Positions 19,978-49,737 of a stretch of DNA of 64,000 nucleotides are shown here, piece by piece. Position 1 is the first letter of the stretch; every line of letters begins with the position of its first letter. Source of the stretch: Kiritimatiellia bacterium (lineage in GTDB: Bacteria; Verrucomicrobiota; Kiritimatiellia; RFP12; UBA1067). A model generated the notes under the pieces. The model was not told the DNA's origin, did not search any database, and saw nothing but the letters and a program-made list of their open reading frames with translations. The position numbers and the translations under genes were made by a program. The stretch spans positions 1 to 64,000 of the forward strand of contig JAFXTB010000162.1 in the NCBI GenBank assembly GCA_017525225.1, in the 5' to 3' direction.

Positions 19978-22900
19978 TCACTTCTTCAATACCGCCGTCG
20001 AGCCGCTGAAGGGCGCGGCTGTGGAACCAACCTCGGCGAAACCGACGGACGTCTCGCCGTCCTGCCCCACCGCGATCTCCACCGTCACGGACTTCTTGCC
20101 GTACTTCATCGTCGCCTTGGTGCGCAGCACGCCGTCAGTGAACGAATTGAACGATCCGACCGAGAAGGAATACGACTTCTTCTTCGTATCGACGAACTTG
20201 CCGGACACCTTGCCCGTCTTCCCGACGGTCAGCGTCACGGTACCCTTCGCGGCAGGCGGCGTCTCGCCCGTCGCGGCAGCATAGAGCGTCCCCTTGAACG
20301 TACCCACGGCCCACGCGGGGAGCTCTGCCACATCGAGCTTCACCTTGTAGGTCCAGGTCTTCTTCTTGTTGGACGCGAGCGCGACCGTCACCGTCGCAGT
20401 GTACACCTTCTTAACGGTGGGCACACCGGTCACCTTGCCGCTCTTAAACTTCAATCCCTTCGGCAGTCCCGTCACCTTCGTGATCGACACCACGCTCTCG
20501 CCCACAACCGACAGCTTCGCCGAATAGCTCACGCCGACAGTGAGATTCGTCTCCGCCCACGTCAGCGTCGGCTTCGCGAGCTCGCTCTCCTTCTTGAAAG
20601 TGGCCGTGAGCGACGCGCCGTCCGCCGGCACCTTGTACTTGTAGGTTGTGGCAAGCGACAGCACCGTTGCCTCTTCCCCGTCCCCAGTCACCCAGCCGGT
20701 GAACGCATACCCCTTCTTAGGCGTGGCCTTCAGTGTGGCGGTCTTGCCGGCGAGGTACGAGCCAGCGCCCTTCACCGTGCCGCCCGCCTTGTTGTCCACG
20801 ACCACCGTCACCTTCGGATACGGCTTGAACGTCGCGTAGTACGTGGCGTCGTTCGTGGCCGTCACCTTGATCGTAGCGGATTTCGCAAGGAATTCTCCTA
20901 AACCACCAACCTGTTCACTATTCACTATCCCCTCTTCACACTCTCTATACCATCCCTCGAAGCTCCAATACTTCGTCGGCGTCGCCTTCAGCGTCACCAC
21001 CTTGCCATCGGCGTACCTGCCGCTGCCCGTGGTCTTGCCGCCGTTCGCTGGATCGGCGAGAGCGCGCACATACCGCGCAACGGCGAACTTCGGCGTCACC
21101 TTCTTGGACTTGCGCGTCTTGTCCGCGATCGTGGCCTTGGTGGAGTACGTCTTCCCGTTCGAGTACGTCCAGCCGACGAACACGTACCCGGGCAGAGCCT
21201 TCGCCGTCACGTTGCCCTTCTTGTCCTTCTTCGTGAAGTAGCCCGCCAGGACGTCGCCCTCCTGGTAGGGCCCGCTCGCCGAGCGGGCCGCATACACCGC
21301 CGTCGCCCCCGCCGGCAGGGCGGCCAGCCCTCTGGTCTCCTCCTCCTCTTCGTTCGCCACGTCGGGCCATTGCGCGTCCTTGATCCGTACCGTGCAGACC
21401 CTGGCCTCGCCCAGCGCCATGCCGCTCGCCGCAGCCAGCTGGAGCGTGAGGAGCTCATCGCCCTCCACGAGCGCATCGGCCTTGACCGGGATCGTGACAA
21501 CCTTCTCCCCGACCTCGCCCGCCGCCCACGTGAGCGTGACCGGATACTTCGTCTTGCCCAGGTTCAGATCCACCGCCGAAGCGGTGTTGTACGCGAGATA
21601 CAGCTTCACGCTTGAATTCGTGTCGGCATTGCCGCCCATCACGCGAATGACCACGTTGCTTCCCTCGTCGGATTCGACGTTCGCCTCGGCGAAATTCACA
21701 GTCCATCTTTCCGGCGCGACGGTGTTCCACCACGCGGGATCGGTTTCGATCGGGTCGTTCGTGTCGAACACGATGATGGCTGAATTGTCGATGCGTACGC
21801 CAGGAGGCGCATCTTCGCGCACCTTGACGCGGTAGGTGAGATGTCCCTCGCCGCAATGCGTCGCAGGGTTGTTCGGCGGCAGGAATCCACCTCTCACATC
21901 TTTCGGCCATGTGTCGCCTGAAGCAGGATCGACTACCCGCATGTACCAACGGACCTCGCCCTTGTCGCTGTCGAGATCGACAATGGAGCGGACAATTAGG
22001 TTCGTGCCGGTCATCGTCACCTCGTTCGTGGCGCATTGCTTGCCGGCGAGACCAAGGTCGATCTGGTCGCCAAACGCCACCTCGCCCATCTCGAAGGTGG
22101 ACCAGTCGAGATACTCGCTCAAGGAGTTGGTCACAAATACCTCCTGTGCGGCGGCAGTGGCATTGGTCTGGTTCTCGAAGTAGATCGTATACGGCATCCA
22201 CTGCCCCGGCTTCACGAAACGCTGCGTATCTGGATCGCCCTTCCCCAGCGGTCCCGCCATCTCGTTGGGGTCCCGCCCGGCGACACTGCTACCTCCTCCG
22301 CCGCCTTCTCCTCCGCCGCCGCCACCGGCGCCACACTGGCAGTTCTCGCAATCACCATCGCACGTAGGGCAATTTGGCCCACACTTACACCTTTGAGGAT
22401 TGATTACGAGATTTGCAAACGCTTTTTTATCTCGCGTCAAACCGTCCTTGTACTTTTGGGTGACGACAACGCGTACTTCCAACGGATCCTTGAATCCTTT
22501 CGTTTCATATTTGTGCGTGTAGGAGCTACCGAAGAATTCCGGACTACCATCGCCCCAGTTTATGGATTCCAAATAATCGCAATGTTCTGAATCGTTCCAA
22601 TCTACTCCGGTTGTCACCCTCGCATTTCCTTTGTCATCAATCGTCTTACTCAAGATCTTTGGCACTGCTGAATATGACACGCGGAATGGACACTCACCCC
22701 GTACAAGAGGCCAACTTTGGGGAAGGATGGCGACTTTACCTTCCCAGCATCCTAACCCTACTCCAGCCTCGAATGGAGTGAAGGTGATCGATCCACCCGC
22801 ACCAAGCACAAACTGCCCTTCATCTGGCTCAAATTCCCCTCTCAAGGTTTTCTTGTAGGAGCAATCAAGTCCTACCTTTACCCCAATAGCAAGTGCCTTG

Positions 22901-25900
22901 GCCTTGACCGCCTTGAAATTAAATCCAGCGCCGACATCGACACCGAGCCCGGCCTCAATCGCGAAGCCTGGGCAAAAGGCGCTCTTTGTCTTTTCATTGG
23001 ACTTTCTTTCATTGATCGGTCCAGAGCGAGGTCCATTCGCATCATATCTGAACCATCTTCCACGTCTGTCGGTCCGTGAAACCAACTCAAATCTTCCATC
23101 ATAGCCCCCATGTATACCACCACTCACATATGCCGATCCCTCAACCGTCATCGGTATCGGTCCCGCCATGAATTTTCCAAGTTCAACTGATTTGGAGACA
23201 TTAATCGGCTGGAAATCGATTCCTGCACTAAAGTCGACACCCACATTGATAGACACAGAACGCGCCACCTCAAAATAGACCATCGTTATCTTCCCGTCAG
23301 AGACCTCGAAAGCCATATGCCCATCTATCTCCGGGGCTATCGTTATGTATGGAAATTTAAGCTCACCAATTATGGTATTGGATATCTTGAACGGAGCATA
23401 CGGACAAGAATTACGGATCTGTGGCAGAATCTCGCTTAATTTCGCTGTAAACCAACTCTCAGCCCCTCCTTTTGCAACAACTCCAGAGACAGAACGGAAT
23501 ACATCTGTAACATCTGCTGCCTGTACCCTGAGCGCGATACCACCAGAACCTCTGTCAATCGATTCCACCTTTACCGCAGCCGGACCATCACGGAACGGCA
23601 CGACGAGAACATCTCCCACCTTGCAATCCGAGCCGATCGCTTCATCAACAACGATTTCATTCTCGGATGCCATAGAGACCAAATCTCCTGCGGACAGCGA
23701 TCTTACGCCTTCATTCAATTCCGTACCAACATTCTCTCTTACCTCAACACATGCACTGTACGCATAATTTGTCCATGTTCCTTCATCATCTTGAACTTGA
23801 AGCATGACATCGTAGATTCCACTTTGCGCATATACCGTCGTCGGGGCGACTTCGGTAGAATCAATGGTCCCGTCCGCATCAAAATCCCATTGAAAAGCTT
23901 TTGACGCAAGAACCGCTTCGTCATCTATCTCGAAAGTTATCTCGCATGGGGCAAAACATACCGACATGTTTGGACGGAATGGCAAAAAGGACGGGATTGC
24001 GATGTCAACAAATGCCGTCTCATCCCTGGTCGCAGCGACTTTTATATCCTCAAACGACTTGGCATATCGTTCAATGGAAGAAATCGTATATTCCCCTGGC
24101 TGTACACCAGGAATCGCAAACCTCCCATTCGCATCCGTCGATGCTGAATACATTAAGGCATTGGTAGTGCCGTCTGTCGCTACCAAGATGATCGGCAGGT
24201 CAACGGGCGGCGCGTGGCCGCTCTCGAATGAGACCCTTCCTTCTATCCTCGCGGCAGTCGGCAGAATAATCTGTCCGTCAAATGCACCAGAACCGACTGG
24301 CATCTCCGTTTCTGGAAAGACCTTGTGTGCAAGGACACGGACAATGCAATTGTCATTGGTGACACCCCAGAACACAAAGCCTCCTGACGAGTCGGTAGTA
24401 GCGGAATCGATCCGCCCACCGTCCGCAAGCAGTTCCACCTGCGCTCCCGGCTGCATGACATATCCTGCAGCCGACACAACCGTCCCGGCAATCGGTCGCA
24501 GCGACGAATGAACAACAAGGTCAAGACAGTCTCCTGAAGCGGTACTTATCGGCGTACGTCTCACACCATCCACATCTTCGGTCTCTAGCCAGAGTCCTGC
24601 CGACTTTGGTACATCAAAAAAGGCGAACTCCCCTTCTTGTCCAGTGACGGCCGAATGCGCCACAGTTCCAGAATCGTCTTTCAGCGCAACCGGTCGTCCG
24701 ACCATGGGACGAGAGATCGCATCGTTGAAAAGCCTACCTGTCACCATCGCATTGTCGAACCCAATTGCCGTCTTGTTGGCGAGATCTCTTGCACGCGTGA
24801 AATCTCCCGCCTCGAGCCCGGCAAGACCAAGTCGCGTCACTGCGACAGAAAGCCCTTCTGCAAAATCCTTCCATGTCGTGAACACGCTGTCCCGCTTGAC
24901 ATCCCAGTCAAAGCCAAGTACGGAATACGAAATATTGTATTCTCCTCCACCCGGACTGAAGAAAAAGTATTGGCGTCCGGTCTCGCCCGGCATGATCTTG
25001 CCAGCCTGCGCGGATTTGCCTGCACCTATGAATATGGCCGATTTGGAATACTCGCCATCCTGTGTGAGCGAAAGGGCTGTACCATTCGATGCCTTCAGTG
25101 TAATGATTGGAGCAAGGGCCTCGGCATTGCCAGAATTGTGCCACTCCACGAAACCCGAGGAGATGCGTCCACTACGTACAAAGGCCGGCGTGTCAATGGA
25201 AAACGATAGCTTGGGCTGGGCTGGACTAGCCTGGACCGCAAGCGCGGCCGCCAAACGAGCACTGGTAACACCTGCGACCGCAACCAGATCATGACGCATG
25301 CCAGGCGTCAACATGCCGCAGTCAACCTTTGCAAGAATGCGATCCGAGGACACGTAGGTCACGCTTGATGCCGGAATCGTCCGTGTGCCCGTAAAGGAGA
25401 CCGATGTTGCCGGAGTGAATCCAGTGCCATCGATGGAAAGCGTCGCGATGCCTGACGAAGGCAGTACGGCAGGGACAACGCCAGTGATCGCAATCCCATC
25501 GGGTTCCGTCGATAGCGTGTACCCTGCGGAGACATCGCTTTCCATCACGACATATGTTTCGACAGCACCTTCTGGGACCATGAACGCAACGCCATCACCC
25601 ACTACTGTGGCTTTGCCGGAACATAGGGTATCCTGCGGCATGAACCCAAAACCCCAAGTCACCCTGGTCCCTTCTGGAACGGCTATGCGAACGAGCCGGT
25701 TGACCGTATCCTGGTTGAATGGCAATTTTAGCACGGCTGGAACGCCGGGCGACACGCGTCCTGAAACTGCCGATGAAACATCTGTAGCGGCAACAACGAT
25801 CTCGACAGGAACGGAACCCACAACAGCATTGTTTTCGGTATGATCTCCTTCCAATATGTCGCGATGTGTATTTATCTGCACTTTTGGAAACCATGGCCCC

Positions 25901-27915
25901 TCTTTCAGCGCAGGCACCATGAAAGTACCCGAACAGACGATGCTTCCACCAGGAGGGATGCTCCCCTCGGAATTTCTTTCTCCAAGGGACACCGTGCGGC
26001 CATTGGCGGATACAAGCGATACATTGTCGCGCCACGAGCCTGCCACGATGCAATCTCCTCCATTGGAAACCACCCAGCTCACCCTCAGCATCTCACCCGG
26101 AGAAACCTCCCCATCCGTGCCGACACTCGTCGCAACAAGATCGACCTTGGCCCGGCTCTGCACCTCGAAAATTCCTATGTCAGCCAGATTTGCAGCGCCG
26201 CCGGGTATGTTCTTGACGCTTGTCACGCGCGGTTGTCCGTAGAAATCATTTGTTGGTGCCATGACACCGGCCGCATCTATGCATGGAGAGGCAAGTTCAA
26301 TCCTGAAATCACCGTTTTCAGGATCGGCAAAGAGGGGATCTCCGTATGTCATGCCACTTGCCGCATCATCACCCCCGACGTATGAAACCCAGTTTGTAGG
26401 GATCTCCTGCCCCCCCGAATAGGCCAGGCAATTTACGGTCAACGAGCCAGGGGCGCAAGTTGTACACATCCAGAACACGGAATTGCTGACAACGGTGCCG
26501 AATGCCCCTTGCCTGCACTGGGAGATTATCCCGTTCACGAATGTCGCTCGTTCCCGAGAGGTCTCATCCGCCATACCTGTCCAATGATTGTCTATTCCAA
26601 AATCTGCGTCTTCAAGGATGCAGTTCTCGGCATACACCCTTCCTGCACTTTCCACCACACCGATCATCCTTGTCGCAGAATGCTTCAAGATGCATCCAGA
26701 AAGGTAGTTGGTTCCGCGACGTGCAACCACCATCCCATGCGATATTCCAGATTGCACCATGCCATCAGGTGCGCCACCATAGTAGATGTTGGCATAGTTC
26801 AGATATGCCGTCCCCGTTTGGTTTATTATTCCGGCCCAGTCCCCTATCTCCGGAGCGACATTCCCTTCCTCGGGATTCGTGTTGCCGCCATGGGTGTCAT
26901 CTCTTGCCGAGGTGAACACCACCGGGAATTCACGCGTACCATGCACATCCAGTACGCCCATGACCCTGAGCAGCCCGCCACGCTTGAACTTGATGGTCGT
27001 CCCCGGAGGAACTATCAGCCTGCCGGTGGACGCCACAATCAGATTGGAGACAACGTACACCTTGCCTGGAGACAACCCATAGGTGCTGCCGATCGACATC
27101 GGCAGGTAGCCGATATTGTCAAATTTCCAGGCGTCTCTGCCGACATGCTCCACCGCATCGGGAGGATTGAAGCTATACGTCGAAAGCGGACAGCCGCGGA
27201 AGGCGTAGTCCCCCACCCAGGCAAGGCTCGACGGCTCGGCAAAGGACACTCTAGACAGCGCAGTGCAGGAATCGAATGCACAGTCGTCTATCTTCACAAC
27301 GCTGCGCGGAATGGTGACACCCGTCAGGTTGGTGCAGTTTCTGAAGGCGCCATACCCTATCTCCGTGAGTCCCTCCGGCAAGTCGACGCCCTTCAGCGCC
27401 TGGCAACCGACAAAGGCATTGGTCCCGATGACCGCCACTCCACCGGCAAGGGCTATATGCGTCATGCGCTGGAACGAACTCATGAACACCGTGGCAATGC
27501 GTCCTGTACATGCGCATTGGGGGAGCGTGACGTCAACCAGATTCGAGCAAAGCGAAAAGGCGCTCATCCCGATGTTCGTCACGCTGCCGGGCATCGTCAA
27601 CCGTTCAAGGCCGAAGCATCGCGCAAACGCTCCATTCCCCAGATTCACCACGCCATCAGGGATCGCGACGCTGGTGAGATTGCTGCAGTTCATGAACGCG
27701 CTGTTGCCGATGCCTGCCACATCCTTGCCGCCAAGCGTGGCGGGAATTTCAAGGTGTCCCGGGTACGCTTGCGGCGCCATCTTCTGGATTTCGGCCATGC
27801 CGCCGACAATGCGATAGTTCCAGGTGCAGCCAGTATCGGGATCGTTCCAGACCTCGGCCCGGGCGCAAAAAGCGACCGATGCCGCCATCACGGCAGAGAT
27901 TAATCCTGTTTTCAT
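19978..27915 (-). CDS. Giant modular surface protein (LRR, beta-helix, CARDB, PKD, Calx-beta, InlB repeats)
   Basis: A 2,645-residue secreted protein starting at ATG 27915, after a TTTTGGTATAAT promoter; the signal peptide runs to about residue 20. Modules, with rough residue positions: BspA-type leucine-rich repeats 50-245; parallel beta-helix-like region 285-580; CARDB-like 580-720; IPT/TIG-like 800-875; carboxypeptidase-regulatory-like segments; PKD 1320-1390; a Cys-rich then Gly-rich linker near 1850-1880; DUF11-like 1890-2060; Calx-beta 2075-2170; InlB-type repeats 2220-2445; Ig-like 2450-2528; and an LPAWAVG-type terminal module 2530-2645 shared with the metalloprotease. It probably acts in adhesion or glycan binding at the cell surface. 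I saw no sorting motif. Roughly 22.4-26.8 kb looks less GC-rich than both ends, which suggests a mosaic origin. Confidence 0.85.
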   Translation of the reverse strand: MKTGLISAVMAASVAFCARAEVWNDPDTGCTWNYRIVGGMAEIQKMAPQAYPGHLEIPATLGGKDVAGIGNSAFMNCSNLTSVAIPDGVVNLGNGAFARCFGLERLTMPGSVTNIGMSAFSLCSNLVDVTLPQCACTGRIATVFMSSFQRMTHIALAGGVAVIGTNAFVGCQALKGVDLPEGLTEIGYGAFRNCTNLTGVTIPRSVVKIDDCAFDSCTALSRVSFAEPSSLAWVGDYAFRGCPLSTYSFNPPDAVEHVGRDAWKFDNIGYLPMSIGSTYGLSPGKVYVVSNLIVASTGRLIVPPGTTIKFKRGGLLRVMGVLDVHGTREFPVVFTSARDDTHGGNTNPEEGNVAPEIGDWAGIINQTGTAYLNYANIYYGGAPDGMVQSGISHGMVVARRGTNYLSGCILKHSATRMIGVVESAGRVYAENCILEDADFGIDNHWTGMADETSRERATFVNGIISQCRQGAFGTVVSNSVFWMCTTCAPGSLTVNCLAYSGGQEIPTNWVSYVGGDDAASGMTYGDPLFADPENGDFRIELASPCIDAAGVMAPTNDFYGQPRVTSVKNIPGGAANLADIGIFEVQSRAKVDLVATSVGTDGEVSPGEMLRVSWVVSNGGDCIVAGSWRDNVSLVSANGRTVSLGERNSEGSIPPGGSIVCSGTFMVPALKEGPWFPKVQINTHRDILEGDHTENNAVVGSVPVEIVVAATDVSSAVSGRVSPGVPAVLKLPFNQDTVNRLVRIAVPEGTRVTWGFGFMPQDTLCSGKATVVGDGVAFMVPEGAVETYVVMESDVSAGYTLSTEPDGIAITGVVPAVLPSSGIATLSIDGTGFTPATSVSFTGTRTIPASSVTYVSSDRILAKVDCGMLTPGMRHDLVAVAGVTSARLAAALAVQASPAQPKLSFSIDTPAFVRSGRISSGFVEWHNSGNAEALAPIITLKASNGTALSLTQDGEYSKSAIFIGAGKSAQAGKIMPGETGRQYFFFSPGGGEYNISYSVLGFDWDVKRDSVFTTWKDFAEGLSVAVTRLGLAGLEAGDFTRARDLANKTAIGFDNAMVTGRLFNDAISRPMVGRPVALKDDSGTVAHSAVTGQEGEFAFFDVPKSAGLWLETEDVDGVRRTPISTASGDCLDLVVHSSLRPIAGTVVSAAGYVMQPGAQVELLADGGRIDSATTDSSGGFVFWGVTNDNCIVRVLAHKVFPETEMPVGSGAFDGQIILPTAARIEGRVSFESGHAPPVDLPIILVATDGTTNALMYSASTDANGRFAIPGVQPGEYTISSIERYAKSFEDIKVAATRDETAFVDIAIPSFLPFRPNMSVCFAPCEITFEIDDEAVLASKAFQWDFDADGTIDSTEVAPTTVYAQSGIYDVMLQVQDDEGTWTNYAYSACVEVRENVGTELNEGVRSLSAGDLVSMASENEIVVDEAIGSDCKVGDVLVVPFRDGPAAVKVESIDRGSGGIALRVQAADVTDVFRSVSGVVAKGGAESWFTAKLSEILPQIRNSCPYAPFKISNTIIGELKFPYITIAPEIDGHMAFEVSDGKITMVYFEVARSVSINVGVDFSAGIDFQPINVSKSVELGKFMAGPIPMTVEGSAYVSGGIHGGYDGRFELVSRTDRRGRWFRYDANGPRSGPINERKSNEKTKSAFCPGFAIEAGLGVDVGAGFNFKAVKAKALAIGVKVGLDCSYKKTLRGEFEPDEGQFVLGAGGSITFTPFEAGVGLGCWEGKVAILPQSWPLVRGECPFRVSYSAVPKILSKTIDDKGNARVTTGVDWNDSEHCDYLESINWGDGSPEFFGSSYTHKYETKGFKDPLEVRVVVTQKYKDGLTRDKKAFANLVINPQRCKCGPNCPTCDGDCENCQCGAGGGGGGEGGGGGSSVAGRDPNEMAGPLGKGDPDTQRFVKPGQWMPYTIYFENQTNATAAAQEVFVTNSLSEYLDWSTFEMGEVAFGDQIDLGLAGKQCATNEVTMTGTNLIVRSIVDLDSDKGEVRWYMRVVDPASGDTWPKDVRGGFLPPNNPATHCGEGHLTYRVKVREDAPPGVRIDNSAIIVFDTNDPIETDPAWWNTVAPERWTVNFAEANVESDEGSNVVIRVMGGNADTNSSVKLYLAYNTASAVDLNLGKTKYPVTLTWAAGEVGEKVVTIPVKADALVEGDELLTLQLAAASGMALGEARVCTVRIKDAQWPDVANEEEEETRGLAALPAGATAVYAARSASGPYQEGDVLAGYFTKKDKKGNVTAKALPGYVFVGWTYSNGKTYSTKATIADKTRKSKKVTPKFAVARYVRALADPANGGKTTGSGRYADGKVVTLKATPTKYWSFEGWYRECEEGIVNSEQVGGLGEFLAKSATIKVTATNDATYYATFKPYPKVTVVVDNKAGGTVKGAGSYLAGKTATLKATPKKGYAFTGWVTGDGEEATVLSLATTYKYKVPADGASLTATFKKESELAKPTLTWAETNLTVGVSYSAKLSVVGESVVSITKVTGLPKGLKFKSGKVTGVPTVKKVYTATVTVALASNKKKTWTYKVKLDVAELPAWAVGTFKGTLYAAATGETPPAAKGTVTLTVGKTGKVSGKFVDTKKKSYSFSVGSFNSFTDGVLRTKATMKYGKKSVTVEIAVGQDGETSVGFAEVGSTAAPFSGSTAVLKK
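20898..20947. repeat. AT-rich in-frame insert with tandem TTCACTA repeat
   Basis: An AT-rich stretch of about 50 nt inside an InlB-type repeat of the giant protein. It contains TTCACTA twice in tandem (20914-20920 and 20921-20927) and adds roughly 14-16 residues between GWYRE and EFLAKSA, where the neighbouring repeat unit has no counterpart. The reading frame is kept. Edges are approximate. Confidence 0.4.
21264..21291 (+). repeat. GGTAG hairpin repeat, copy 1 (inside the giant gene)
   Basis: GGTAG, then a perfect 9-bp stem (GGCCCGCTC 21269-21277, GAGCGGGCC 21281-21289) closing a GCC loop, then GC. It lies in frame within the giant surface protein gene, reading antisense as ARSASGPYQ. It is identical over its whole length to the copy at 46791. 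Confidence 0.8.
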
Positions 27916-27922
27916 GGCCGGC

Positions 27923-27928
27923 ATTATA
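27923..27928 (-). promoter_or_regulatory. TTTTGGTATAAT promoter 7 nt before the giant gene
   Basis: A minus-strand TATAAT preceded by TTTTGG, with seven bases (GCCGGCC) before the ATG at 27915. It is one of the clearest copies of the signature in this window. Confidence 0.65.
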
Positions 27929-28059
27929 CCAAAACGCACCGCCTGACGCCAGCAGAACGGAGGATCAAGAGGATGGACGCAGAACCGAACGGCGCCTTCA
28001 TGGCAAAACGCCCTTGCGCAGGGCAAGGGCGTTGGGGTGAACCGTTGATTCTCCGGCGT

Positions 28060-46166: not shown

Positions 46167-46783
46167 TTGGCATGGGAACGATACCGGAAACTTCCACGAC
46201 ACTGTTGAAGGACATCGCGAATGATTCGCAAAATGTCCGCTGGAGCGAGTTTGTCGCGCGCTACCGCCCTATGATGGAGGCGTTCCTGCGCGAAAGGTTT
46301 CCGTCTGTGGAGGCAGATGACATCATCCAGGAGACGCTAGCCGCGCTTTGCCGGGTTCTTCCTTCCTACAGGTATGCTCCAGACGAAAAGGGTCGCTTCC
46401 GCAATTATCTAACAGGCATTCTACGGAACAAAGCCTTGCGCGCGCTTGACAAGGAACAGCGCCAGACCGAGATTGCCCATGAACTTATGCGGTCGCAGAG
46501 CGACACGCCATGCCACGAGGAACGCGATCCGGAATCTGCCGCAGACAAGCAGTCCTGGCGTGAAGCCGTCTTCGAGCTTGCCCTTGAGCAGTTTCTCGCC
46601 GACGATTCGATTGCGGATCGAACGAAGCGCATATTCGAACGCGTCGCGATCAACGGCGAATCGCCGGAGGTTGTCGCGGCATCGTTCAAGATGACGCGCC
46701 ATGCCGTCGATCAGGCCAAGAGCCGCGCGATGGCGCGGTTACGGGAAATCGCAAAGGGGCTAGAGGATGTCGCCGAAGTCTGA
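46163..46783 (+). CDS. ECF-type RNA polymerase sigma factor
   Basis: A 206-residue protein. The sigma region 2 signature (WSEFVARYRPMMEAFLRERFPSVEADDIIQETLAALCRVLPSYRY, then GRFRNYLTGILRNKAL) is at about residues 20-95. Region 4 (SPEVVAASFKMTRHAVDQAKSRAMARLREI) is near 170-200. It is probably regulated by, or regulating, the Hanks-type kinase whose gene overlaps its end by 17 nt; such pairs are common in planctomycete-type genomes. The start could also be the ATG at 46172. Confidence 0.85.
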   Translation: MIGMGTIPETSTTLLKDIANDSQNVRWSEFVARYRPMMEAFLRERFPSVEADDIIQETLAALCRVLPSYRYAPDEKGRFRNYLTGILRNKALRALDKEQRQTEIAHELMRSQSDTPCHEERDPESAADKQSWREAVFELALEQFLADDSIADRTKRIFERVAINGESPEVVAASFKMTRHAVDQAKSRAMARLREIAKGLEDVAEV

Positions 46784-48188
46784 GAAAACCGGTAGGGCCC
46801 GCTCGCCGAGCGGGCCGCCCCCCACCGATGATCTCGCCGCACTCTGCGCCGCCCACGCGCCCGTATCTGCGAACGGTCGCTTTGACGCTGGAACCGTTTT
46901 CGGAGATTGGCGGCTTACGGCGTTCATCGGACGCGGTGGTAACGGCGAAGTATACTGCGCGGAGCATGCGACGCTTGGCACGCCTGCAGCAGTAAAGGTG
47001 CTGGTGCGCGAAGAAGAGCGTGCAAGGATGCGTTTTGCCCACGAGGCGCGACTTCTTTCATCCCTGAAGTCTAGGTCGTTTCCGCGATTCTTCGCATACG
47101 GCGAGGCGAACGGACACCCATATCTTGCGATGGAATTGCTGGAGCCGGGCGAACTGCCGGCTGGAGAGCGAGCCATCGCCCGTTTTCTGCTGAGAGTATG
47201 CGATGCCGTGGCGGAACTCCATGCGCAAGGACTCGTCCATCGCGACATAAAGCCGGGCAATATCCTGTGGCGCTCGGTAGGGGCATGCGTCCCGCGTGCC
47301 CGCGGACGCGCGTCCCTGCCCGTCCCCGTCCTGGCCGATCTCGGCCTCGTCAAGGACATCGCGACATCCGCCGGCGGACATCCGACTTCGGACACTACCC
47401 TCGGCGGCGTGGGCACGCCGGGCTACGGCGCGCCGGAACAGATGGAGCGCGGCGAGGCGACGGTCGCATCCGACATCCATGCGCTCGGCGTGCTGGCGGA
47501 CAAGTGCTTTGACGGCAAGCCGCCGCGCGCATGGGCGCGGATAATCCAGCGCGCAACATCGTCCATCCCCGCACACCGCTATCAGTCCGTCGCCGCCCTC
47601 GCCCGGGCGATCCGATGGAGGTATCTGTCATGGCATTTGTTTGGCTTTGCGGTGTTATTGCTCGCTCTGGTTGCCATGTTGAAAATTTGGAACGATACGC
47701 CTTTAAGACCGGTAGATACTGGAAACCGCATGCAGGAATCAGGCGGGAAAATTGAGTCTATGCCAAGTGTCAGGCGATTGGATGGTCAAAATGTGGTATT
47801 GTCTGATCCGGTCGTTCTGGAAGGAGGCAAGGAGTATCAGGTTTACGGCCCCGGAACGCTTGACGCCGACATTTTCTGTCCTACTACGGCGGTTTTGCGA
47901 TTGAAAAATTGTACGTTGATAAATCGGACAAAACGCCTCTATCCTGAAAATGGGATACAATACCGTTTGGAGAATGGCGTCTATCTTAATTTCATCAACA
48001 TCCATGGGGATCCGGCGGCTTTGAATGTGCGTGATTTTACTGGCATCTACGATGGAGCTTTCAATGCAGTACGTTTTGGCGGACCGAAAACGGAGAAAGA
48101 ACTTCTGCAATTAAGGGCGGAAGAGAGAAAACGTGAATTGCAGCGGTTTGGGAAAGAAGTGCAAAGACATTGGGGAACGTCGTGGTAA
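46767..48188 (+). CDS. Hanks-type Ser/Thr protein kinase with membrane anchor
   Basis: A 473-residue kinase. It has the Gly loop IGRGGNGEVY, AVKVL with the ATP-binding Lys, the catalytic loop HRDIKPGNIL, DLGLV in place of DFG, and GTPGYGAPEQ in the activation/P+1 segment. The kinase domain (about 40-280) is followed by a transmembrane helix near 290-310 and an outward domain of about 150 residues with beta-helix-like repeats. The gene carries two copies of the GGTAG hairpin repeat: one near codons 9-18, and one between the catalytic loop and DLG that adds about 18 residues (VGACVPRARGRASLPVPV). The sequence after the helix is more AT-rich than the kinase domain. Confidence 0.88.
   Translation: MSPKSEKTGRARSPSGPPPTDDLAALCAAHAPVSANGRFDAGTVFGDWRLTAFIGRGGNGEVYCAEHATLGTPAAVKVLVREEERARMRFAHEARLLSSLKSRSFPRFFAYGEANGHPYLAMELLEPGELPAGERAIARFLLRVCDAVAELHAQGLVHRDIKPGNILWRSVGACVPRARGRASLPVPVLADLGLVKDIATSAGGHPTSDTTLGGVGTPGYGAPEQMERGEATVASDIHALGVLADKCFDGKPPRAWARIIQRATSSIPAHRYQSVAALARAIRWRYLSWHLFGFAVLLLALVAMLKIWNDTPLRPVDTGNRMQESGGKIESMPSVRRLDGQNVVLSDPVVLEGGKEYQVYGPGTLDADIFCPTTAVLRLKNCTLINRTKRLYPENGIQYRLENGVYLNFINIHGDPAALNVRDFTGIYDGAFNAVRFGGPKTEKELLQLRAEERKRELQRFGKEVQRHWGTSW
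46791..46819 (+). repeat. GGTAG hairpin repeat, copy 2 (kinase N-terminus)
   Basis: GGTAG, stem GGCCCGCTC (46796-46804), loop GCC, stem GAGCGGGCC (46808-46816), then GCC. It is in frame at the start of the kinase gene, where it encodes GRARSPSGPP. It is identical to copy 1. Confidence 0.85.
47276..47315 (+). repeat. GGTAG hairpin repeat, copy 3 (inside the kinase core)
   Basis: GGTAG, stem GGGCATGCG (47281-47289), loop TCC, stem CGCGTGCCC (47293-47301; one mismatch or wobble), then GCGG. A 12-nt perfect palindrome GGACGCGCGTCC follows (47304-47315). The stem sequence differs from the other copies but the architecture is the same. It is in frame between HRDIKPGNILWRS and VLADLGLV. Confidence 0.7.
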
Positions 48189-48380
48189 AAGTGCGAACGG
48201 AAGTGTAGATTCAATCGCGAGCCGATTTGCCGTCGAAATATTCTGCGTGACATTTCGCCGCGAGGCGGCAGTATGATATAGAGGAACGGTTTGCCCTGTG
48301 CCTCGCGGGAGAGATGGCACGATCTTGGACTCCCGCGCAGAAATATTCAAATTCGTGTGCACATGCGCACGGAGTTTTGG

Positions 48381-48386
48381 TATAAT
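48381..48386 (+). promoter_or_regulatory. Orphan TTTTGGTATAAT promoter
   Basis: An exact copy of the TTTTGGTATAAT signature with no start codon opening a credible gene after it. Transcription would start near 48393 and run through the self-complementary segment. Confidence 0.6.
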
Positions 48387-48392
48387 CTGCGC

Positions 48393-48600
48393 CAGACAAT
48401 TCAAGAATCGTTGCGTTCAATGCATCGGTTGGCACTGTTGAAACCTGAGAAATTTCACGTGTGTGCCAGACGAAGCGAGGAATGCGTCCAGCTGGGCGTA
48501 TGTCTCTTTCGTGGGTCACACAGGGCTTTCTCAGGGCCTCAACAGGAACACGGGAGAAGAGTGCGCCCTCTTTCTTTGCCCGTGATCGGAAAGAGGGCAC
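48393..48600 (+). ncRNA. Candidate structured non-coding RNA
   Basis: Downstream of the orphan promoter, pairings nest into a long rod. GTTGA (48437-48441) pairs with TCAAC (48539-48543). CCTGAGAAA (48444-48452) pairs with TTTCTCAGG (48527-48535). GTGTG (48459-48463) pairs with CACAC (48517-48521). CGAA (48471-48474) pairs with TTCG (48508-48511), and an apical TGCGTCC/GGGCGTA hairpin lies at 48483-48500. A second strong hairpin pairs GTGCGCCCTCTTTC (48561-48574) with GGAAAGAGGGCAC (48588-48600). A rod with internal loops recalls 6S RNA, but I cannot confirm the family. The 3-prime end is not evident, since there is no U-run. No RNase P, tmRNA or SRP consensus was seen. Confidence 0.45.
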
Positions 48601-48692
48601 CTGGGAAACCGAGTGGAAAGAAACGGCACAGCCGCGAAAAAAAACGCGCAACGGACGCACCGTCCGCTGCCGGTTCCTGTCCGTTCACCCTC

Positions 48693-48721
48693 GGTAGGGC
48701 CGTCTCGCCGAGACGGCCGCC
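48693..48721 (+). repeat. GGTAG hairpin repeat, copy 4 (intergenic)
   Basis: GGTAG, stem GGCCGTCTC (48698-48706), loop GCC, stem GAGACGGCC (48710-48718), then GCC. The stem is perfect. Its inner pairs differ from copies 1 and 2 in a compensated way, so the structure, not only the sequence, is conserved. Confidence 0.85.
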
Positions 48722-48921: not shown

Positions 48922-49737
48922 ATGTCAAGTCGTATGGGATTAATATCGCTGGCGGTTGTCGGCGTTGTATGCATGTGTGGATGTTCGCAGGATGATCGGG
49001 ATGAAATTGCAACGCGTGGAGGAAATGCGTGGGGGGCTTTGAAGGGCGAAACAACTCCGGGAGAACGAACGCCTCGTGTCGTGAAAGAACAACAACGCAA
49101 AGAACGCATCCGTCAGAACAACACCTGGACGCCCGAGAACCGTGCACATCATCCAGTGGAATACTGCCAGGCTCAGTTGGAAGTCTTGCAACGGCATTCG
49201 CGCGAACTGGAGGCGCGAGCGCATGAGAAGTCGTGTGCCATCGCAACTGTCAAGCGTACGATTGGCGACAACGAGGCAATGGAGAAATCCCTCAAGAAGT
49301 TTATCGACGACGCCAAGAAAATCTACAAAGAATGCGAGGCGGCGAATAGTTGGCCCGCTAAGCTTGGCGGCTATACCCTCTCCCGTGAGAAGACACAGGA
49401 GAAGATTATCGATGCCGCGCAAAAGCTTGCAGAAATCCAGTTGAATGCAAACAGCAAGAAGAATCAGCTGGTAGCTCTCGAAAAAACCTTGAAGATCACG
49501 CAAGACCAGCAAAAACACATCGTCAAGATTCGGGAACAGGTCCAGAATACGATCAACGATCTTCGTATTAAGAAGGTCATTGAGGGTGACAACAGCATAG
49601 TGGCTACGCTCAATGCGATCGAGGATAATATGGGGACACTTGGCGCGAACTATGACGACCCGAAGATCGAGAATATCATACAGCCTGACGAAAAGACGAC
49701 TCGCGAGGAACTGTTCAAGAAGATCATGGCGGAGTGA
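48922..49737 (+). CDS. Putative coiled-coil lipoprotein, function unknown
   Basis: A 271-residue protein. AAGGAG lies 6 nt before the ATG. A hydrophobic signal (residues 6-18) ends in CMCGC, a loose lipobox. The rest (about 70-260) is mostly charged alpha-helix with heptad-like patterns (KSLKKFIDDAKKIYKECEAA, NSKKNQLVALEKTLKITQDQQKH), probably a periplasmic coiled coil. I recognise no family. It opens the AT-richer accessory block, and a strong hairpin follows its stop. Confidence 0.6.
   Translation: MSSRMGLISLAVVGVVCMCGCSQDDRDEIATRGGNAWGALKGETTPGERTPRVVKEQQRKERIRQNNTWTPENRAHHPVEYCQAQLEVLQRHSRELEARAHEKSCAIATVKRTIGDNEAMEKSLKKFIDDAKKIYKECEAANSWPAKLGGYTLSREKTQEKIIDAAQKLAEIQLNANSKKNQLVALEKTLKITQDQQKHIVKIREQVQNTINDLRIKKVIEGDNSIVATLNAIEDNMGTLGANYDDPKIENIIQPDEKTTREELFKKIMAE

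Follow-up and report, generated by a model that had tools for sequence, protein, structure and literature searches.

The window, a 64,000-nt stretch of a draft Kiritimatiellia assembly (genome G000; 4.2 Mb in 180 contigs), carries four copies of a short palindromic repeat, and we find that the repeats of this kind are high-copy, dispersed, GTAG-tagged REPs. By far the best explanation, and one we hold to be very probable, is that they are REP/REPIN mobile elements of the GTAG kind, linked to RAYT transposases.

Four repeats in the window

The copies at 21264, 46791, 47276 and 48693 all lie on the + strand, each made of GGTAG followed by a 9-bp stem that closes a 3-nt loop; the stem of the 47276 copy includes one G-T pair. 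The 47276 copy belongs to a TCC-loop family and the other three to a GCC-loop family. The elements and the genes that host them are as follows.

19978..28026, - strand: repeat-rich ORF of 2682 aa, hosting the 21264 copy antisense and in frame
21264..21291, + strand: single GTAG REP, GCC-loop family; GGTAG, GGCCCGCTC gcc GAGCGGGCC, then GC; encodes AARSASGPYQ in the 2682-aa ORF
46767..48188, + strand: 473-aa Ser/Thr protein kinase, extended at its C terminus (Pfam PF00069, E=1.7e-24), with two in-frame REPs
46791..46818, + strand: single GTAG REP, GCC-loop family, identical in sequence to the 21264 copy; read in sense and in frame within the kinase's N-terminal tail, where it encodes GRARSPSGPP
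47276..47320, + strand: TCC-loop REPIN, in frame in the kinase's catalytic domain between HRDIKPGNILWR and PVLADLGL
47276-47301: first REP of this REPIN, GGTAG GGGCATGCG tcc CGCGTGCCC, then GC
47304-47320: shortened inverted REP of this REPIN, GGACGCGCGTCCCTGCC
48693..48720, + strand: GCC-loop variant of the single GTAG REP, GGCCGTCTC gcc GAGACGGCC; in the gap from the kinase ORF (end 48188) to an ORF starting at 48922

The product of the 2682-aa ORF is probably secreted or surface-exposed. A preliminary description of the window had reported the four copies with these stems; all were located, and both simulation and a genome-wide control place them far above chance. Three perfect 9-bp stems with 3-4-nt loops occur in the window, each of them one of these elements, and ten sequences simulated from the dinucleotide frequencies of the window hold 0 or 1 such stem apiece. 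The same description had three of the four copies in frame within genes, and so we find them: the 21264, 46791 and 47276 copies lie in ORFs and the 48693 copy is intergenic. Its common GC-rich tail stands only in part, as the tail is present but at 47276 consists of the shortened second REP half. This half lacks part of the hairpin, and an intact dimer occupies the same site in an orthologue (L292). An Rfam search of the window at gathering thresholds gave no match.

Copy number and covariation

Beyond the window, the strict pattern GGTAGGGCNNNNTCGCCGANNNNGCC matched 66 times in G000 and 0 times as a reversed control, and a covariance model (R1) built from 13 variants gave at least 137 matches at E<=1 among 150 scored candidates. 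Such searches had been proposed as a check in the preliminary description, and they show enrichment over the control rather than a background frequency. A census on fetched stretches of G000 yielded at least 130 distinct copies: the loop is GCC in 74, TCC in 41, and CCC, CCCC or a rarer form in the remainder. GGTAG is invariant among the aligned variants, the stem is 9 bp long and the loop has 3 nt, sometimes 4. The CGTC tag, which marks CGTC REPs and Rickettsia RPE-4 and RPE-6, was not found in these copies, which have GTAG.

The stems had been described as varying while they keep pairing, and this is borne out. The G000 variants are 100% paired, though this partly reflects how they were selected, namely for forming hairpins. 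Seven of nine stem pairs are altered on both sides, with a covariation score of 0.87 vs 0.22 when shuffled; none of 500 shuffles reached the score, and the signal is lost when partners are slid. Among the G000 REPs, structure is conserved and sequence varies.

The two main families, GCC-loop and TCC-loop, are held together in G000. Copies are often paired, and the pairs are arranged head-to-head, with GTAG outermost, in 22 cases vs 3 tail-to-tail pairs. Sixteen of these dimers measure 91-93 bp, with a related spacer of ~40 nt; five measure 54-57 bp, with almost no spacer, and one measures 118 bp. The head-to-head dimers, made of two inverted REPs, are REPINs.

The sequence core of the repeats is spread across Verrucomicrobia, Kiritimatiellae, Lentisphaerae and a few other groups. 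REP abundance in relatives was taken from exact patterns, and by this measure the window type is present 58 times in G000, 41 times in G041, 24 times in G035 and 0 times in the congener G021. These counts suggest a horizontal entry of the family into the G000 lineage, or else its loss from G021.

In-frame insertion into genes

Orthologues of the window's kinase occur in many genera at 65-81% identity and allow occupied and empty sites to be compared. Alignment to solved kinases places the insertion loop past the catalytic loop and before the motif equivalent to DFG. Seven orthologues (L287, L291, L294-L297 and L299) have an empty, short site between HRDIKPxNILWR and PVLADLGL. The window's kinase (L277) and L282, L292, L293 and L298 have mutually different REP-like elements there, and other orthologues have further GC-rich inserts at this loop. 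In a G000 paralogue (L051), the same loop is occupied by a GCC-loop REP. The N-terminal 46791 copy is common to L298 (G029) and absent from L278, L280 and L282. Similarly, in large proteins that form a paralogous family, one site spans 90 nt without a REPIN and 183 nt with one, a difference of +93 nt. These empty-site comparisons show that REPs insert in frame into genes, with exact insertion ends blurred by divergence between species.

In-frame copies also lie in purL, just before the glutamine amidotransferase domain, in aconitase/leuC and in a divergent rpoB-like gene. The TAG within GGTAG closes one sense frame and the other frames are open. We also observed that the single kinase loop (L277-L299 and L051) is a hotspot for different palindromic elements across many species. 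The rpoB-like gene (L016; G000:C53, ~67364-70389) encodes a divergent RNA polymerase beta-like protein with Rpb2 domains 3, 6 and 7. Another GC-rich repeat, GGTGGGGCGAGGC, is found in the relatives L279, L283, L142 and L390, where it encodes GGARRPAEP/ARPPAEPL-like peptides; it sits at the kinase N-terminal site in L279 and not in L280, and is perhaps a GTGG-tagged REP family.

Copies inside and between genes were counted, as had been proposed earlier, with a simple codon model. Noncoding DNA holds 42-47% of copies vs 14-21% of random positions, and coding sequence 31-37% vs 48-57%; the model is weak, scoring only 48-57% of random positions as coding, and only the contrast is used. The noncoding enrichment and the fractions of copies that read through coding sequence suggest a preference for noncoding DNA, with insertions into genes tolerated often.

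The noncoding excess would also suit immobile signals that work at the RNA or DNA level (terminators, hairpins for mRNA stability, or sites bound by proteins) and are held in place by host selection, and REPs elsewhere have been proposed as such signals (PMC3733652). However, many copies lie inside coding sequence, their positions differ between orthologues with empty sites among them, the congener G021 lacks the exact type, and different REP types have struck the same kinase loop. We consider immobile host signals very unlikely, and favour mobile REPs.

RAYTs in related genomes

RAYTs of ~170-200 aa, with a HUH motif and with NPV..GL and WP motifs, occur in relatives that belong to the same family. 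The closest solved structure to the G041 RAYT is E. coli TnpA-REP (4er8, E=1.3e-6), aligned across the HUH and tyrosine regions, and its score against NF047646 is ~71 bits, below the 80-bit cut-off. The RAYTs of G041 and G111, genomes from different genera, are 92% identical. In both genomes, GGCCCGCTCgccGAGCGGGCC and GGCCGCCTCgccGAGGCGGCC, which in G000 outnumber all other REPs, bracket the gene. RAYTs in G037 and G050 contain the window's TCC REP type, REPs in inverted orientation flank the RAYT gene on both sides in L129 and L130, and five further RAYTs (L131-L134 and L156) have their own REP types at the gene. The same REP types lie on either side of, or inside, at least 17 RAYT loci, and REP sequence tracks RAYT sequence. 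Across the RAYT-associated REPs (n=16), 99.3% of cells pair and seven of nine pairs are altered on both sides, scoring 0.82 vs 0.15 when shuffled. The resemblance to REP-type palindromes moved by RAYTs, put forward in the preliminary description, is supported by these relatives, whose RAYTs are bracketed by or contain the window's REP types.

Could the RAYT neighbourhood be coincidental, the repeats being RPE-like or other palindromic MITEs unrelated to RAYTs? Their in-frame insertion into genes is like that of Rickettsia RPEs (PMC3733652), but neither the GTAG tag nor the head-to-head dimers, nor REP types that track RAYT sequence over so many loci, fit such an origin, and the loci seen indicate that REPs are far commoner near RAYTs than near random genes. 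Unrelated MITEs therefore strike us as extremely improbable, and a RAYT-linked origin is preferred.

A RAYT clade with internal REPs

One RAYT clade, of 12 sequences with the motif RKRLNHRGPLSIDVSSAWYFITICA, has REPs in frame within its coding sequence on both sides of the HUH motif.

Internal-REP RAYTs: L126/L136, L137, L138, L139, L140, L143, L144, L146, L147, L155, L157 and L378
Site a: after ICAxxHxPW, REP in sense
Site b: after the HUH strand (PDHLHFIV..) and before the next helix, REP antisense

Site b is filled in all 11 members with a REP passing the scan, antisense in each and in the same frame in 10; the twelfth, L157, has a REP-derived peptide at site b with a decayed hairpin, and L378 has three tandem REP copies there. 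Further copies are often found near both ends of these genes. The clade has support of 95/93 in a tree made after removal of the REP-encoded residues. Internal REPs differ between members (TCC, CCC, GAC and ACC loops, among others) but keep pairing. By exact pattern, the RAYT-internal REP type of G021 occurs only inside its RAYT and nowhere else in the assembly.

Published descriptions put REPs to the sides of RAYT genes or across the gene ends (PMC2817692, PMC3733652, PMC6006769), and a literature search mostly outside subscription journals found no description of REPs internal to a RAYT gene. To our knowledge, the clade is new. We see about an even chance that REPs are a built-in part of the RAYT gene in this clade, with fixed HUH-flanking sites and a REP sequence that changes with the RAYT. 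If this is true, embedded REPs would couple the enzyme physically to its substrate, perhaps with a role in regulating the gene as well, and the G021 RAYT would be a transposase gene carrying its only substrate. Internal REPs would in this way tie the transposase to its substrate, which may be the reason they are kept.

No cognate RAYT found in the window's assembly

The preliminary description saw no RAYT transposase in the window, and in agreement the window's contig has no Y1 match. In the G000 assembly, the L123-type and L137-type RAYTs have 0 matches, and REP-rich genomes such as G035, G038 and G029 hold no close match to the GCC-type RAYT. The G000 REPs look orphaned, or else the RAYT gene lies in an assembly gap. 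At least nine G000 contig ends fall within ~100 bp of a REP vs ~1.5 expected, and therefore a REP-bracketed RAYT could have been lost in such a gap. The REP-proximal ends belong to C28, C47, C96, C98, C131, C150, C161, C177 and C180, which suggests that the repeats break the assembly. As some E. coli strains are known to have REPINs but no RAYT (PMC8049555) and the assembly is a draft, the missing RAYT weakens the claim of an active system, not that of a REPIN origin.

G000 does encode nine Y1-like proteins (L031-L039). Eight of them (L031-L033 and L035-L039) are Y1-domain proteins of ~330-400 aa that share a conserved C-terminal part (STFMSP..EK...G...I.L.PEGF). The ninth is a 224-aa Y1-like gene (L034:1430-2180) bracketed by inverted repeats, CCCATTGGTGGAGTAAGAGTGGTGGAGTAG, and it resembles the TIR-flanked transposases (TIRYT) of PMC3733652. 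The nine were considered as mobilisers and set aside for their weak NF047646 scores and for mostly having no flanking REPs; relatives of L035 were set aside since their presence across the family does not follow REP abundance.

Movement of the repeats in trans by these distant proteins, instead of by a lost cognate RAYT, would find some encouragement in a GGTAG hairpin with a CCCC loop just downstream of L035 and in a GCC-type REP ~570 bp upstream of L034. Against this, most of the G000 Y1 proteins have no nearby REP, the terminal inverted repeats that bracket L034 are unrelated, the scores are far below those of REP-flanked RAYTs, and several REP-rich genomes are without L035-type genes. We judge movement in trans improbable, and return to cognate RAYTs in outlining how the elements may have spread.

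Discussion

Our model for this spread draws on published RAYT biochemistry. TnpA-REP binds single-stranded REP, the GTAG helps it to recognise the element and to select the site, and the tyrosine is required for cutting at CT (PMC8266576). By analogy, a RAYT would bind the GTAG tag and hairpin in single-stranded DNA and would nick beside the hairpin by means of its HUH histidines and tyrosine. It would then copy or join the REPIN elsewhere. Insertions would persist in intergenic DNA, or in those loops of genes where translation can pass the hairpin with no stop codon. G000 would be the host of two main REPIN families, those with GCC and TCC loops, whose cognate RAYTs were presumably present in its lineage in the past and may since have been lost, or been missed by the assembly.

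The usual picture is of extragenic REPs and of RAYT genes with REPs on their flanks; here, REPs read through genes in frame. The matched RAYT-REP pairs form a natural series for learning how a RAYT recognises its REP, and the embedded substrates make a case for asking whether they help an enzyme-substrate pair to persist.

Comparison with known systems

Like the Rickettsia RPEs, the repeats are palindromes inserted in frame into many unrelated proteins. Unlike RPE-4 and RPE-6, which are CGTC-type elements without a dedicated transposase (PMC3733652), the G000 repeats carry GTAG and have RAYTs.

The RAYTs of relatives share with RAYT/TnpA-REP and REPtrons (PMC2817692, PMC6006769, PMC8266576; 4er8) the HUH and tyrosine core and the NPV..GL and WP motifs, and, as in REPtrons, one REP type brackets the gene in L129-L134 and L156. 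They depart from REPtrons in the one clade that has in-frame REPs inside the coding sequence, on both sides of the HUH motif.

As in the REPINs of P. fluorescens (PMC3116915), two inverted REPs surround a conserved spacer and a genome holds separate families. Singlets in P. fluorescens are probably decayed halves of REPINs (PMC3116915), and likewise here. In contrast to P. fluorescens, many copies are intragenic, the 54-bp family is without a spacer, and no cognate RAYT was found in the assembly.

In form, the repeats are like the GTAG superfamily (PMC3733652), with an unpaired GTAG at one end, a 6-13-bp stem, a short loop, sub-families with complementary stem changes, and head-to-head dimers mostly 20-100 bp apart. 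Set beside the description of that superfamily and its 24 listed families, the repeats differ in being found in a Kiritimatiellae-type bacterial family. The preliminary description did not recognise the family; the window elements belong to this known GTAG superfamily, which covers PVC bacteria and includes, in Opitutus terrae, a PVC bacterium with many intragenic copies like those described here (PMC3733652).
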